Notes under the pieces: model-generated
Told to the model about the DNA's origin: nothing
The model's database searches: none
The model's input: the letters and a program-made list of their open reading frames with translations, nothing else
DNA from: a virus
DNA: 26,990 nucleotides
Direction: 5' to 3' (one strand)
IMG/VR virus record: IMGVR_UViG_3300003895_000003
Span: 1 to 26,990 of that record
Made by a program: the position numbers and the translations under genes
Shown: positions 4,688-26,023 of the stretch, in pieces
How positions within the stretch are numbered: position 1 is the stretch's first letter
Layout of the letters: each line of letters starts with the position of its first letter

Positions 4688-5782
4688 ATGATTCCTGTCA
4701 TGGATATGTTTCTCATCGGAGCGGGAGCCTGTGTTCCCCTGGGTCTATCTACCACGCAAGGATTCATGACCAGCTTCAATCCATCTCCCGACACCCGGCT
4801 CCTGTTCGATGTCCTACTCGCACAGTTGGCCGACAACGACAAAAGCCGCCTGGACATCGAACGGATTTTTTTCGTTCTGGAAAATTTAATCAAAAATCAT
4901 AAGACCTATATCAATACGGCAACGCTATTTGAGGAGACGTATCGCAAGAAAATGGGGGACAGTACTTCTCCAGAAATGAAATCCGGGTTTGATAGCAAAA
5001 GAAATTATTCAGCCTCTGCCAAATATTTCCTGGGCGATCTTTACAGCATGGCAATCGTCCTGGATCGGGAATTAAAACGGTTCCTGTGGGACAGCCTCAA
5101 ACACGACCGGCAAAAAGCATTTGAACTCTTTTCCGGCCTGTTTTCCCCTTTGTTGCAAAGACAGGACAGCCTGACGATCTTTACGACCAATTACGATTTA
5201 GTGCTGGAATCCGTTTTCGAGGACGTTAACCGGGAGTCAGGATTAAAAAAACATTGGGAAGACCTTGGAATTCACGAAATCTACAATGGTTTTGAATGCC
5301 GTGGCTCCAGTCTCGTTCACACCCGTAACCTGGACGCAAACCGGCCCGCTGCCCATGAGGTTGGGTATTTCAAACTTCACGGTTCGTTGACCTGGGATTT
5401 CCATGATGGTGTTTGCATCACCGGCGCACCACGCATGCCCGAAGACTTGAACGGCCCGGCATTGATCTATCCCGGATACAAAGGCATCCCGGTGGATCAT
5501 CCCTTCTCCGATCTGCACCGACATTTCTTCAACCGGCTTGCTGTTCACAAACGCCTGATTTCCATCGGTTTTGCCTATCGCGACGAACTCATCAATTCCT
5601 TGATTGCAACCAGTCTCACACTTCGGCCAAAGTTGCAGGTGCATGCAATCTGTCCCGAGTTTCCTGAAGACTCCAATTTTCCAATGCTGGCCAGGCAGTT
5701 CCCGGAACAAGTTTTTCATCATCGTGAAAAATTTGGAGAAAAGGACCTGTTGGCGTTGATTCCGCCACCTCCGGCAGAATAA
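4688..5782 (+). CDS. Stand-alone SIR2-domain protein (probable defence NADase)
   Basis: A 364-residue protein on the strand opposite to the surrounding tail genes. It shows the SIR2 landmarks in order: a Rossmann glycine loop MFLIGAGACVPLG near residue 7, a TIFTTNYDLVLE motif near 160 with the NAD-contacting Asn and Asp, KLHGSLTW near 225 with the catalytic-type His, and ISIGFAYRDELINSLI near 300. There is no zinc-binding Cys quartet, so it resembles the SIR2_2 class used as NAD+-hydrolysing effectors in anti-phage systems rather than protein deacetylases. No second effector or sensor gene is adjacent. ATG 4688 is the first start; 4699 or 4705 are possible, and none has a clear ribosome site. 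Defence role is inferred from family and setting. Confidence 0.8.
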   Translation: MIPVMDMFLIGAGACVPLGLSTTQGFMTSFNPSPDTRLLFDVLLAQLADNDKSRLDIERIFFVLENLIKNHKTYINTATLFEETYRKKMGDSTSPEMKSGFDSKRNYSASAKYFLGDLYSMAIVLDRELKRFLWDSLKHDRQKAFELFSGLFSPLLQRQDSLTIFTTNYDLVLESVFEDVNRESGLKKHWEDLGIHEIYNGFECRGSSLVHTRNLDANRPAAHEVGYFKLHGSLTWDFHDGVCITGAPRMPEDLNGPALIYPGYKGIPVDHPFSDLHRHFFNRLAVHKRLISIGFAYRDELINSLIATSLTLRPKLQVHAICPEFPEDSNFPMLARQFPEQVFHHREKFGEKDLLALIPPPPAE

Positions 5783-16454: not shown

Positions 16455-17843
16455 TCAATCTGTGTTCCCCGAGTCTGCCAGACCCACTCCACGTTCCGCC
16501 GCCACATCCTCAAACGTTTTCCCACCGGAGCCGTCCAGGTAGACGATCTTGCCGGTGGCATGGATGAACCGCTTTACCGCCACATCCACATAGACCGGGC
16601 TGATCTCCATGGCGTAAACTTTCCGGCCCGTCGTTTCCCCTGCCATAATCTGCGATCCTGACCCAGAAAACGGTTCGTAGCACAGCCCACCAAGTTCCAC
16701 ATGCTGGCGCATAGGAATGGCGAAACAATCCAGAGGCTTCGGCGTCGGATGGTCAGGGCGTGCATCCCCGGTGAGTCCCTTGATGTCCCACACCGAATAA
16801 ACTGGTTCTGCACCTTCGATCTTTTCAGGCCTGTTGCCACGAATCCAACCGTAGAAACAGGGTTCGTGCTTCCAGAGATAGTGCGTCCGTGTCAGAACGG
16901 GGGAGTTCTTGTTCCAGATAATCTGCTGGTGGACAAATGCCCCAAACTTTTCCCACACCGCCTCCAACATTGCTTGCCGTTTGGATGCGTGCCAACAGTA
17001 CCATGCCGCATGGGTGCCAATGGCGTGGTCAATGGCGTTCTTGATGAACCCCTCGTAGAGTTCCGGTCCCTGGTTGGCGTCATCCCATGTTACTCCGTAG
17101 GTGCCAGACCAGTCCTTGTTGCCATCCAACCATCCTTTCTTCACCTTTCCCTCAGCGGCCAGCTTTGCTTTTTCCTGCCTCTCATTGATCGTCTTGGTGG
17201 GCGGGTGGTTGGTGCCGTCGTAATCCACAAGATATGGCGGATCGGTCGCAAAAAGTACCGCCCGTTCGCCTTTCATCAGCCGGATCACGTCATCTGCGAC
17301 GATGCTGCTACCGCAAAGCAACCGGTGATCGCCCAGGCACCAGAGATCACCGGTGCGGGTGACTGGCTTGGCTGGCGGTTCAGGGATGGATTCTTCCTCC
17401 GTGGGGCCACCTTCACCAGCATTGCCCTCGGTCCCGTTTCCCATGTCCAACAACAAACGGTCAATCTCCTCCATATCGAAACCGGTCATCTCCATGTCGA
17501 AATCGAGGTCACGCAATTCACCCAGTAAGTTTTTCAACAATTCTTCGTCCCACTCGGCCCAATTGGCGGACTGATTGGCCAGCAGTCGAAACGCATTGAC
17601 TTGGGCTTCGGTGAGGTCGTCGGCCAGGACCACCGGCACCGTTTCCAGATTCAACCGCCGGGCGGCCTTGAGACGCAGGTGACCGTCCACAACCAGTCCA
17701 TCGCTCTTGGCGACGATGGGGATGCGGAAGCCGAACTCCCGGATGGCACCCACCATGCGGTCCACCACTTCATCGTTGCGTCTTGGATTTTTGGCATATG
17801 GAATCAACCGGTCCAATGGCCAGTCCTCAATCTGCAAACTCAT
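16455..17843 (-). CDS. ParB-like domain fused to N6/N4 DNA methyltransferase
   Basis: A 462-residue fusion. Residues 1-100 are a ParB/Srx-type domain (LIPYAKNPRRNDEVVDRMVG, VVDGHLRLKAARRL, ADDLTEAQVNAFRLLANQ). The methyltransferase has DPPY at 201-204 and the AdoMet loop YEPFSGSGSQIMAG near 389; DPPY before FxGxG is the beta-class order. It methylates adenine N6 or cytosine N4 exocyclic amines in DNA, probably to protect phage DNA from host restriction. No restriction gene is adjacent, so it is an orphan. GGAG precedes the ATG by six bases. It is the first gene of the rightward-starting morphogenesis operon. The target sequence is unknown. Confidence 0.92.
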   Translation of the reverse strand: MSLQIEDWPLDRLIPYAKNPRRNDEVVDRMVGAIREFGFRIPIVAKSDGLVVDGHLRLKAARRLNLETVPVVLADDLTEAQVNAFRLLANQSANWAEWDEELLKNLLGELRDLDFDMEMTGFDMEEIDRLLLDMGNGTEGNAGEGGPTEEESIPEPPAKPVTRTGDLWCLGDHRLLCGSSIVADDVIRLMKGERAVLFATDPPYLVDYDGTNHPPTKTINERQEKAKLAAEGKVKKGWLDGNKDWSGTYGVTWDDANQGPELYEGFIKNAIDHAIGTHAAWYCWHASKRQAMLEAVWEKFGAFVHQQIIWNKNSPVLTRTHYLWKHEPCFYGWIRGNRPEKIEGAEPVYSVWDIKGLTGDARPDHPTPKPLDCFAIPMRQHVELGGLCYEPFSGSGSQIMAGETTGRKVYAMEISPVYVDVAVKRFIHATGKIVYLDGSGGKTFEDVAAERGVGLADSGNTD

Positions 17844-22905: not shown

Positions 22906-23412
22906 TTATTGGAAGTATCCCTGGCTGGTGGCATCATCCAATGGTTGTAACTCCCCCTCAGACAACTTTATCCGTTCTCTGACTTCCATCAGGATATTAC
23001 CCAGCATATTTTTCCCCTTTCCATTGACCTCGCCCCACAACCTGTTTACCGCGTTATCGACCGTGGCCGACTCAACCAATCGCTCTCCCCCGGTAGACAA
23101 GAGTAAAGCTTTCAGGTCACGGTGCTGTGTAAACTTTGCCAACAGCACCTTACGCATCCGGTCAACTTTGATTTTACTCCAGTTTGGAGCGATGTCCCAT
23201 GAGTAGAGTCCGTGTGCGGCCATGGCCAGCAGGGAGGGGGACGGGGCTGCCATCAGCCAGTCACGAACCTCTTTCGTCCTTGGCTTCCCAGCTTGATATG
23301 CGTGTTCCGATGTCGGAAAATTTTCCCCCTCGAAAACGATCTTCCTCCGATAGAGATTGCTGAACGCCCCATAGGGCTTGTCGCTGGCGCGGTAGAATTT
23401 AATGTCGTTCAC
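22906..23412 (-). CDS. NADAR/YbiA-like protein (DUF1768)
   Basis: A 168-residue enzyme of the NADAR superfamily. In order it shows IKFYRASDKPYGAFSNLY, GENFPTSEHAYQAGK, then a helical middle and WGEVNGKGKNMLGNILMEVR, the signature of the ADP-ribose-binding/N-glycosidase fold. NADAR proteins include YbiA (riboflavin intermediate N-glycosidase) and enzymes that remove ADP-ribose from guanine in DNA, as antitoxins to DarT-type toxins. GTG 23412 was chosen because TGAGGGGG sits just before it and the family usually begins close to 'I-x-F-Y'; ATG 23430 is an alternative that overlaps the previous stop. No DarT-like toxin is nearby. Confidence 0.85.
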   Translation of the reverse strand: MNDIKFYRASDKPYGAFSNLYRRKIVFEGENFPTSEHAYQAGKPRTKEVRDWLMAAPSPSLLAMAAHGLYSWDIAPNWSKIKVDRMRKVLLAKFTQHRDLKALLLSTGGERLVESATVDNAVNRLWGEVNGKGKNMLGNILMEVRERIKLSEGELQPLDDATSQGYFQ

Positions 23413-23422
23413 TTGCGCCCCC

Positions 23423-24193
23423 TCAATCATAACAGTCGCATGGGATATTTGGGTCGATATCATCAAATTCTAAATTAAATATCATTTGTTTTGCCTCTTG
23501 TTCGGCTCTGTCACGCCAGTAGGTGGCCGACCTATCTCGCCATTGGTAATAATAGTTTTGGATGTTGCCACCACTGTTGATCAGTCTGGATCTACTAACG
23601 CTTTCCAACTGGACGATTTTGTCAAACATTTTCCGGTTGTTTTTGGCTAATTCTAAAATCTCCTTAACCCTCATAAAAGGGCAATGCCAACAACCACTTT
23701 TTACTGGAACGCAAATACCAGCCGACTTGATAATATCAATGCATTTTCGTCGATCAATCCCATGAGAAACTAATGGGTAGTGCTTTGGAAAGTCTTTTTT
23801 TTTCTTGTTGGCTGGTTTTGCTCTGTGGGACTCTCCGGCATCGATCCCAATTAATTGTTCTGGGTTATCGTCGATTGTTTTTATGTACTCCATGATTGGC
23901 CGAATTTTTCCATGATCCGTACAGTCCCTGCGCACGCGAGACCCTGTAACTTCGTATCTTTGCCACCTTTCCAAGACCGTCTCTTTTGGCCTTACTGTAA
24001 TTAAATCCCTACCATTTTCATGCAAATACGGAAGAAACGTCTTGTTGATATACCTAATCGTTTCTGGCTTTTCATTGCCGGTGTCGCTAAATATAAACTT
24101 TACTTCACCATATTCCGGGAGACTGCCGTTAATGCACATGACCGCCAGTGCGGTGGAATTGACCCCGCCGCCGTATGAGAGCCAGAAGCTCAT
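23423..24193 (-). CDS. PAPS reductase-like PP-loop enzyme
   Basis: A 256-residue protein of the adenine-nucleotide alpha-hydrolase fold. SYGGGVNSTALAVM near residue 6 is the PP-loop that binds ATP; FIFSDTGNEKPET follows like the 'DTg...e' motif of PAPS reductases. RRDCTDHGKIRPIMEYI near 89 and SGCWHCPFM near 167 carry Cys placed as in enzymes that bind an Fe-S cluster or transfer sulfur (DndC, TtcA-like). A Lys-rich patch (AKPANKKKKDFPKHYP) may bind nucleic acid. ATG 24193 overlaps the radical-SAM stop as ATGA, with GGAG upstream. Sulfur or adenylyl transfer to nucleic acid is the inferred reaction; substrate unknown. Confidence 0.82.
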   Translation of the reverse strand: MSFWLSYGGGVNSTALAVMCINGSLPEYGEVKFIFSDTGNEKPETIRYINKTFLPYLHENGRDLITVRPKETVLERWQRYEVTGSRVRRDCTDHGKIRPIMEYIKTIDDNPEQLIGIDAGESHRAKPANKKKKDFPKHYPLVSHGIDRRKCIDIIKSAGICVPVKSGCWHCPFMRVKEILELAKNNRKMFDKIVQLESVSRSRLINSGGNIQNYYYQWRDRSATYWRDRAEQEAKQMIFNLEFDDIDPNIPCDCYD

Positions 24194-25116
24194 CCCCTGT
24201 ACTCCTTCCACGGCACCGCCCGATAAAGCCCCGTCGCGGCCCACCGGGAGAACGCCATCAAGTCTTTTTGCTTCCGGTCAATCGGCATCGGATATGGCTC
24301 AATCCCGCGCTCGACCATCCTATTGAACCGATACAACCGGCTCTCGATGGTCTCTTCTTGGTCATGGCCGATGAGCATATAGGCCCGCAGGTGGTGCGGA
24401 GGAATCCCGGCCCGATCCAGACGGTCCACTCCATCGAAAAACCGTCGCTCGTCCCGCAGGCGGTCCCATGCGCAATAAAGGCGGCGTCGCTGGAACTTTG
24501 TGCATCGGTACTCAATAGATGCCAGTGATGCCGCCTGGGTATCTGTGATGGTCCTGATGTTGATCCCCTGCTCCAAACAGACACGGAATCCGCCTGTCCG
24601 GATTTCGTCGATTCGCTTGCGCCACGCCCCTTCCGGCTGGCCAAAGAAGTCGCTGTCTAACAGAAGGAGCTTGCGGGAGTGCAGACCGCCACGCCAGATA
24701 TCCAGGATGGTGCTGGTAGCGCGGGGTTTCCCCTCTTTCTTGGGGACAATGCAGAATTCACACTTGAACCGACACCCCTGCATGGTGTAGCCAATGGAGG
24801 CGTCGCAATTCGGGTAGTCGGAGTAATCGACGCGCAACCACTCTTGGCCGATGATTTCCTCCACTGTCTGCCAGTTCCCCGACCCTGTGCCTCCAATAAT
24901 CGCGTCCGGGAACTGCTTCCTGAAATCCTCTACTTGCCTGAATGAGGAATTGAAAATTGCAGACCCATAGACGACATCCGGCTTCGGCTCACCAAGTTCT
25001 CGTGTCAGCGACCGGGTTACGGTTACTTGGTCTCCGTTTTCCCTGTGGAAACTGGCCAAGCGCATTAGGGCCAGATTCGGCAACTTTCCGTCGAGCGGGG
25101 TGATGCGGACGTTCAT
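24190..25116 (-). CDS. Radical SAM enzyme, phage type
   Basis: A 308-residue enzyme. The cluster motif CX3CX2C is at residues 115, 119 and 122 (MQGCRFKCEFCIVPKKEGKP), and the domain continues LLLLDSDFFGQPEGAW and GFRVCLEQGINIRTI. Residues 1-105 form a Rossmann-like domain (VVYGSAIFNSSFRQVEDF, AIIGGTGSGNW) in the place of the cobalamin-binding domain of methylthiotransferases, but the usual DxHxxG is absent. The C-terminus (HLRAYMLIGHDQEETIESRL) is helical. ATG 25116 has GGGGAGC just before it, so I dropped the 31 extra residues upstream. Coupled to the PP-loop gene by a 4-base overlap. It may install a carbon or sulfur group on a base; substrate unknown. Confidence 0.85.
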   Translation of the reverse strand: MNVRITPLDGKLPNLALMRLASFHRENGDQVTVTRSLTRELGEPKPDVVYGSAIFNSSFRQVEDFRKQFPDAIIGGTGSGNWQTVEEIIGQEWLRVDYSDYPNCDASIGYTMQGCRFKCEFCIVPKKEGKPRATSTILDIWRGGLHSRKLLLLDSDFFGQPEGAWRKRIDEIRTGGFRVCLEQGINIRTITDTQAASLASIEYRCTKFQRRRLYCAWDRLRDERRFFDGVDRLDRAGIPPHHLRAYMLIGHDQEETIESRLYRFNRMVERGIEPYPMPIDRKQKDLMAFSRWAATGLYRAVPWKEYRG

Positions 25117-25183
25117 TGTAGCTCCCCAGCAGCAAGTGATACCGCTGCCGCCATCCGCCTGACCCACACCGGCGTTGCCACCA

Positions 25184-26023
25184 TCACGAAAGCCTCCCTT
25201 CGAGTACACTGATCTCTAAAATCGCCTCCCCAATAAGCCGCACCACTTGCGGCACCACGGAGTTACCCAGGGCCATCACAGCCTGTTTTCGCCATCCAGC
25301 CAGCCGTCGGGGAACCCCATGAACCATTGACACCACGTCGGGTTGAGTTGGCCACCAGGGGCGATGATGTCCCGCAACGGTTTGGAGCGTTTTGCCCGTT
25401 GAATTTCCCCCCGCACCGAGTCCAGGCGATATCCAGTGCGCCAGTCGGTTGCGCAGAGCGTGGGTAAGAGGCGTATCATCCCCAGGAGAGAGATGCCGCC
25501 ACGCGGCCCACCGTGATACGTTCTCCCGTTCGCGTCCGTCGCGGTCAGGGTGGGCAATAATGAAAAGCCGGTCTCTCTCGTGATGCGCACCAACGGCGCA
25601 AGCCGGGATACAATGCCATTCCGCATCGTACCCGATCTCATCAAGTGCCCGGAGAATCTGGCATAGTCCTCGACTACGAAGAACTGGACTGTTTTCGATG
25701 ATGATCCAAGATGGGCGGACATCCCGGATGACTCGGAACATCTCCCACCACAAGCTGGATTTTGGTCCATCCAATCCTCTCCCCAATCCTGCGTTTGAAA
25801 TGTCCTGGCACGGAAATCCGCCGACAACCACATCAGCAAACCCGCGCGGCAGGTGCAACGACCGGATGTCTGCGTGCAATGGAACATTTGGATAGTGTCC
25901 CTCGATGTGCGAGTGGAGTGCTTGGTTGATCTCGCAAAACTGCACCGTCTTGAATCCCTCTGTCTTCTCAAGACCCAGCGTGAACCCGCAGATGCCGGAA
26001 AACAGATCAATGACGGTTAACAT
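25184..26023 (-). CDS. C5-cytosine DNA methyltransferase
   Basis: A 279-residue Dcm-type enzyme. Motif I is VIDLFSGICGFTLGLE, motif IV VVGGFPCQDISNAG with the catalytic Cys at 72, motif VI reads IIENSPVLRSRG (ENS in place of the usual ENV), motif VIII-like AHHERDRLFIIA, and motif X ALGNSVVPQVVRLIGEAI. The target-recognition part between VIII and X is short. ATG 26023 was chosen because GGAGA precedes it by seven bases; the reading from 26047 lacks a good site. No cognate restriction gene is visible. It could protect DNA, or supply a methylated base for the following enzymes. Confidence 0.92.
   Translation of the reverse strand: MLTVIDLFSGICGFTLGLEKTEGFKTVQFCEINQALHSHIEGHYPNVPLHADIRSLHLPRGFADVVVGGFPCQDISNAGLGRGLDGPKSSLWWEMFRVIRDVRPSWIIIENSPVLRSRGLCQILRALDEIGYDAEWHCIPACAVGAHHERDRLFIIAHPDRDGRERENVSRWAAWRHLSPGDDTPLTHALRNRLAHWISPGLGAGGNSTGKTLQTVAGHHRPWWPTQPDVVSMVHGVPRRLAGWRKQAVMALGNSVVPQVVRLIGEAILEISVLEGRLS

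Follow-up and report, generated by a model that had tools for sequence, protein, structure and literature searches.

The virus record IMGVR_UViG_3300003895_000003 was analysed over the whole stretch of 26,990 nucleotides (the window). The analysis concerned a minus-strand operon that holds the genes of a C5-cytosine DNA methyltransferase (Dcm), a radical S-adenosylmethionine (SAM) protein, a PP-loop protein and a NADAR protein. The window corresponds to contig C78:58146–85135 (minus strand) within a 3.36 Mb draft genome that is 78% complete. The host side is Magnetococcales, a magnetotactic bacterium. That it is a tailed prophage is seen from terminase GpA, a lambda-type portal, capsid and tape measure proteins, and DUF3164. 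An earlier sequence-only reading had taken positions 23412–26023 for a cassette in which the four genes may build one modified base, perhaps sulfur-containing, from or alongside 5-methylcytosine.

The methyltransferase gene (frame A; 25184–26023, minus strand) encodes 279 residues, with the motifs PCQ, ENS and GNSVVP, and falls in phrog_363. A second conserved open reading frame (ORF) lies inside it in the +1 phase (frame B; 25276–25887, minus strand); counted from an internal ATG with GAGG upstream, it gives 203 residues that match phrog_1008 and carry the C-terminal motif LNPTWCQWFMGFPDGW. The radical SAM gene (24190–25116, minus strand; 308 residues, phrog_9298) is spaced 67 nt from Dcm and shares an ATGA overlap at 24190–24193 with the AT-rich PP-loop gene (23423–24193, minus strand), whose 256-residue product has the ATP-pyrophosphatase fold. 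The NADAR gene (22906–23412, minus strand) starts with GTG and encodes 168 residues of the YbiA type. The G+C content of the PP-loop gene is 0.43, compared to 0.57 for both the radical SAM gene and Dcm, and in this contrast with its two upstream neighbours the operon is a mosaic.

The identities, order and strand given for the four genes in the sequence-only reading were borne out by profile matches and motifs, as were the CX3CX2C motif of the radical SAM protein (present as CRFKCEFC), the nucleotide loop and CWHC site of the PP-loop protein, and the ATGA overlap. The range given there encloses three of the genes, but the body of the NADAR gene, which starts at 23412 and runs to 22906, lies outside it. 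The long conserved +1 ORF of the Dcm gene, and with it the double coding, was absent from that reading.

A second conserved frame inside the methyltransferase gene

Frame A is a C5-cytosine DNA methyltransferase, with a Pfam DNA_methylase match of 3.3e-37 (129 bits against a cut-off of 22) and the PCQ, EN and GN-VVP motifs. From these motifs, it would make 5-methylcytosine in the phage DNA. The frame B translation resembled a methyltransferase part at first sight; it has homologues of its own (blastp 3e-31) and matches phrog_1008. The frame is open from 26010 (window 25276–26010, minus strand), and the candidate start at ATG 25887, which leads to the 203 codons, is a guess.

When the relatives of the methyltransferase gene were compared with synonymous shuffles, the mean length of the +1 ORF was 235 codons, as against 103 in the shuffles, and p was below 0.05 for 64 of the 66 dereplicated relatives. 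The +2 frame showed no excess (58 vs 59 codons). Nor was there any +1 excess in the controls, for which radical SAM genes, PP-loop genes and a further 120 phage genes of these loci were used.

Divergence at the four-fold sites of frame A was 0.354 inside the overlap and 0.66 outside it, while codon positions 1 and 2 inside the overlap were, if anything, more divergent. Followed along the gene, the four-fold divergence stayed at 0.60–0.70 until about 15 codons before PCQ, dropped to 0.20–0.55 in the overlap, reached 0.11–0.16 directly before the frame B stop and returned to 0.53–0.61 after it. The gene pairs in these comparisons share relatives and the comparisons are not independent, yet the limits of the constraint coincide with the ORF.

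The two frames travel together. Of the 103 frame B ORFs, 102 share their DNA with a frame A ORF, always in one phase, and the remaining one is cut by a contig end. The same-phase overlap was present in each of the 21 phrog_1008 loci fetched, which come from bacteria of the phylum as well as from phages of Mycobacterium, Paenibacillus and Microcystis. In the intact sites of this sample, frame B never occurs without the methyltransferase. Internal starts with a Shine-Dalgarno-like stretch upstream of PCQ were found in 34 of 64 genes, compared to 2.7 in shuffles, although the shuffles also close the frame. The consensus of frame B contains the motifs RSGMMRNGIVYPLPPLA, WPTPxAxD and LNPxWVEWLMGFPxGWTDL, and no match to it was found in Pfam, NCBIfam or the PDB. 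It may be noted that LNPxWVEWLMGFP resembles methyltransferase motif IX. That frame B is a displaced methyltransferase C-terminus is nevertheless not claimed, since the N-terminus of frame A and the C-terminus of frame B are not linked by any one ORF.

With a stop-free excess, a synonymous constraint within the ORF limits and same-phase homologues, frame B behaves as a conserved overlapping gene. These comparisons show that the methyltransferase gene is double-coded, with a second conserved, protein-like frame in +1 whose product is predicted. Translation probably begins at an internal start some 10–25 codons before the catalytic PCQ, and the strict co-occurrence, which is the sole ground for assigning it a role, suggests that the product most likely works with the methyltransferase as its partner.

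The radical SAM and PP-loop proteins

The radical SAM protein matches phrog_9298 at 5e-37, and its Pfam score of 21 bits is under the cut-off of 29.5. Across 74 sequences of the family, only C115, C119 and C122 of CX3CX2C are invariant among the cysteines. The AlphaFold2 model (predicted local distance difference test, pLDDT, 96) consists of a Rossmann, B12-domain-like N-terminal part and a radical SAM barrel; the invariant motif and the modelled barrel place the protein in the radical SAM superfamily. Foldseek alone gave no significant match of the model in the PDB. When the Foldseek candidates were aligned with VIA-align, full-length alignments were obtained with AprD4 (Z 20), MgmA (19.6), RimO (18.4) and MiaB (18.3), and also with MtaB and TsrM (Z 18–20). 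The cluster motif of QueE, an enzyme of the 7-deazaguanine pathway, is CX14CX2C, and the CX3CX2C of the window protein ruled out that identity.

The PP-loop protein matches Pfam PAPS_reduct (2e-7) and phrog_424 and carries the motifs SYGGGVNSTA and CWHC. The PADLOC model for SspD matches its residues 5–199 at 2.7e-24, and cysteines 91, 151, 168, 171, 252 and 254 are conserved among 48 relatives. Its structure model (pLDDT 91) was nearest to PAPS reductase (Z 13.6), the tRNA thiolase NcsA (12.4) and LarE (12.1); PAPS reductases, NcsA, TtuA, LarE and others score about equally (Z 11–14). A CysH PAPS reductase of sulfate assimilation was rejected, the C-terminal ECGLH catalytic motif being absent. 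Iron–sulfur (Fe–S) thiolases of the TtuA/NcsA/TtcA type agree in fold (Z 11–12) and in having conserved cysteines, and the cluster itself is putative. Sulfur chemistry on nucleic acid is what one would naturally infer for such a protein.

Among solved structures, the PP-loop profile matched best in sequence to PDB chain 21fy_C, named PptA (E 4e-7), and our literature search found no paper explaining this chain. Matches to PPR proteins in the PDB sequence search were repeat artefacts.

Linkage of the radical SAM and PP-loop genes

At least 558 relatives of the radical SAM protein were confirmed in viral contigs, and there are many in prophages. The phrog_9298 radical SAM gene is a widespread phage gene and usually stands alone. 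Scans of viral contigs with single radical SAM, PP-loop and terminase protein sequences gave no matches, whereas alignment-based scans did.

A PP-loop gene was present within about 8 kb in 32 of 160 radical SAM loci (20%), always on the same strand, compared to 5 of 80 loci anchored on a C5-methyltransferase (6%). Thirteen of 21 nearby PP-loop genes lay at most 1.1 kb from the radical SAM gene, where 7.5 were expected (p = 0.011). The radical SAM genes closest to that of the window (62–64%), from metagenome-assembled genomes of the same order, Magnetococcales, are flanked by tail genes and overlap a PP-loop gene that differs from the window's and has 353–398 codons. Both genes also occur in the Bacteroides phages BI-TP1 and BKO1-TP3, 1.3–4 kb apart. 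Adjacency of the two genes changed at least 10 times on the tree. Seen from the other side, a radical SAM gene was present in 1 of 80 PP-loop-anchored and 0 of 80 Dcm-anchored viral loci, and the PP-loop protein's nearest relatives in phages sit without one. Because of this co-occurrence, the changes of adjacency and the lack of enrichment among immediate neighbours, the two genes are regarded as a recurrent, loose and exchangeable pair that is not obligate.

In the Magnetococcales loci (L016–L020; genomes G089, G105 and G129), the PP-loop copy is interrupted in L019 and the radical SAM gene is split in L020, with a transposase-like ORF in each break.

The NADAR protein and other genes of the prophage

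The NADAR protein has a full Pfam domain (5.7e-28), matches E. coli YbiA at 2.8e-25 and keeps the family glutamate (LVE). With the NADAR domain and the catalytic glutamate in the last strand, it belongs to the YbiA subfamily according to the rule of PMC11125620. It is the only NADAR of the draft genome. Within the genus, its relatives at 82, 76 and 70% identity are located next to mutS or in other prophage regions, unaccompanied by the remaining three genes, and no NADAR was found in 240 radical SAM or PP-loop loci. In vitro, several NADAR subfamilies cleave ADP-ribose off guanine in DNA by hydrolysis; in cells, YbiA and phage NADARs gave no rescue from DarT1 (PMC11125620). From the family chemistry, the window protein would most likely strip ADP-ribose off guanine bases, countering ADP-ribosylating toxins of the host.

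Elsewhere in the prophage, a gene with a SIR2-like domain (4688–5782, plus strand; Pfam SIR2_2 1.3e-7) lies within the tail genes, on the opposite strand, and is possibly an NAD-consuming defence gene. A second DNA methyltransferase, of the N6/N4 type and with a ParB-like N-terminal part, is encoded at 16455–17843 (minus strand).

Interpretation of the operon

We consider it probable that the operon is an accessory ('moron') island and not one pathway: four independently moving genes for nucleic-acid modification or anti-defence would have been stacked into one transcription unit of a tailed prophage. The Dcm DNA would also give a second conserved +1-frame protein from an internal start, the radical SAM and PP-loop genes would form an exchangeable pair, and NADAR would act against ADP-ribosylation. 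The genes are taken as independent because both NADAR and the PP-loop protein have relatives that stand apart from the others, radical SAM genes are rare in PP-loop- or Dcm-anchored loci, and the G+C content of the PP-loop gene differs. Judged by fold and cysteines, the radical SAM protein and the PP-loop protein would most likely add sulfur or carbon to nucleic acid, either DNA or tRNA; the PP-loop enzyme would supply ATP activation, with the sulfur Fe–S-bound or present as a persulfide. Sulfur insertion into nucleic acid by the pair is plausible.

Several points weigh against the island interpretation. The single operon and its ATGA overlap could still mean joint function in this phage, and neither a frame B protein nor a modified base has been observed. 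The pairing becomes modest once the loci are dereplicated (20 of 133, or 15%, vs 5 of 80, or 6%; p = 0.077), and PAPS_reduct is not enriched among immediate radical SAM neighbours (5 of 179 vs 2 of 96 for distant controls). DNA methyltransferases are mildly enriched there (19 of 179 vs 3 of 96; p = 0.035), which leaves room for a role in DNA modification together with methylation.

Of the other explanations, the one that survives best, though it is unlikely, has the radical SAM and PP-loop proteins acting on host or phage tRNA, as MiaB, TtcA, TtuA and NcsA do, so that translation is kept going in infection and DNA is not the substrate. The radical SAM model is alike to MiaB and MtaB over its whole length, and the PP-loop model to NcsA, TtuA and TilS. 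However, the radical SAM protein has neither a TRAM domain nor a second set of cluster cysteines, and the mild association of its gene is with DNA methyltransferases instead of RNA genes.

It is quite improbable that the four genes together make a single hypermodified base, derived from cytosine and perhaps containing sulfur, with NADAR for protection or editing. The shared operon with its overlap, the conserved cysteines in a PP-loop fold common to sulfur-inserting enzymes, and the methyltransferase enrichment would suit such a pathway, but the four genes do not co-occur elsewhere, most radical SAM relatives are alone and the PP-loop gene looks separately acquired from its G+C content. The sequence-only reading is partly supported as a whole. 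By its own terms it would be refuted if homologues of the radical SAM and PP-loop enzymes never came together in other genomes, but the two do co-occur in other phages, sometimes overlapping. The single pathway from or alongside 5-methylcytosine is not supported, as neither Dcm nor NADAR shows linkage to the pair (NADAR in 0 of 240 loci, radical SAM in 0 of 80 Dcm-anchored loci, and NADAR relatives of 70–82% without the rest). As for NADAR opposing an ADP-ribosylating defence, hydrolysis of guanine-linked ADP-ribose is reasonable from the family, but counter-defence is only plausible.

That the conserved +1 frame is untranslated, its constraint arising from RNA structure or codon use, is very improbable. 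There is no direct sign of a frame B protein, and the frame lacks Pfam, NCBIfam and PDB matches. Against this, the stop-free stretch is long relative to synonymous shuffles and confined to one frame, the constraint starts and stops with the ORF, and Shine-Dalgarno-preceded internal starts are far in excess of those in the shuffles, even though these also close the frame. Least probable is that the PP-loop protein, as a phage enzyme of the SspD/DndC kind, makes DNA phosphorothioate with host partners, which the PADLOC match to SspD would favour but which is opposed by the lack of a DndD above cut-off in the draft host genome (78% complete; Ssp partners were not searched there), by the lack of any recognised Ssp or Dnd partner gene within the window and by the about equal scores of PAPS-reductase-like and thiolase-like folds.

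Returning to the island interpretation, Dcm, NADAR and the stack of phage cargo are ordinary, the radical SAM/PP-loop pair is moderately interesting and the double-coded methyltransferase is surprising. For the latter, it appears fairly probable that a widespread phage C5-methyltransferase family, whose members occur in proteobacterial, mycobacterial, Paenibacillus and cyanobacterial phages, codes for two conserved proteins, one in each of two frames, the second of about 150–250 residues, always accompanying the methyltransferase and acting as an undescribed partner, e.g., a specificity or regulatory subunit. If this second protein is confirmed, one more product has been hidden in a phage gene that is very common, and past cloning or mutation of such genes altered two proteins together. 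Annotation of the two frames is inconsistent: sometimes one and sometimes both are named methyltransferase. Reading the operon as a pathway would be an over-reading, and that its genes are mostly independent cargo is relevant to the mining of phages for new DNA modifications.

Comparison with known systems

Like the methylthiotransferases MiaB, RimO and MtaB, the window radical SAM protein has a Rossmann-like domain and a barrel along its whole length. Unlike them, it is without the three N-terminal auxiliary [4Fe-4S] cysteines and falls outside that family; it also has no TRAM or other C-terminal domain in its 308 residues. Its whole-length fold is shared with AprD4 and MgmA. The PP-loop protein has in common with phrog_424/PAPS_reduct, SspD, NcsA, TtuA and LarE the PP-loop fold, a CxxC and further conserved cysteines, and is set apart by lacking the ECGLH motif of true PAPS reductases, by a C-terminal CxC motif of its own and by having no known partner. 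Compared with the YbiA family, the window NADAR is prophage-borne, and no ADP-ribosyltransferase (ART) toxin gene was recognised in its operon.

Both phrog_363 and phrog_1008 are already catalogued, and several phage records, e.g., that of Paenibacillus phage Arcticfreeze, annotate the two overlapping frames, each as a methyltransferase. Our literature search, which left most subscription-journal papers outside, found no description of the phrog_363/phrog_1008 overlap as a conserved double-coded pair, nor of the radical SAM/PP-loop pair. ShiLan is an insertion found in phage methylases that conceals an HNH endonuclease in another frame, and resembles the present case in that one phage methylase gene holds a second, out-of-frame protein (PMC11855218). 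ShiLan is a patchy insertion element, whereas frame B covers conserved sequence of the methyltransferase itself in almost all members. Overlapping genes as a kind and both PHROG families are already known; against that background, the conserved double coding of a phage methyltransferase would be new.

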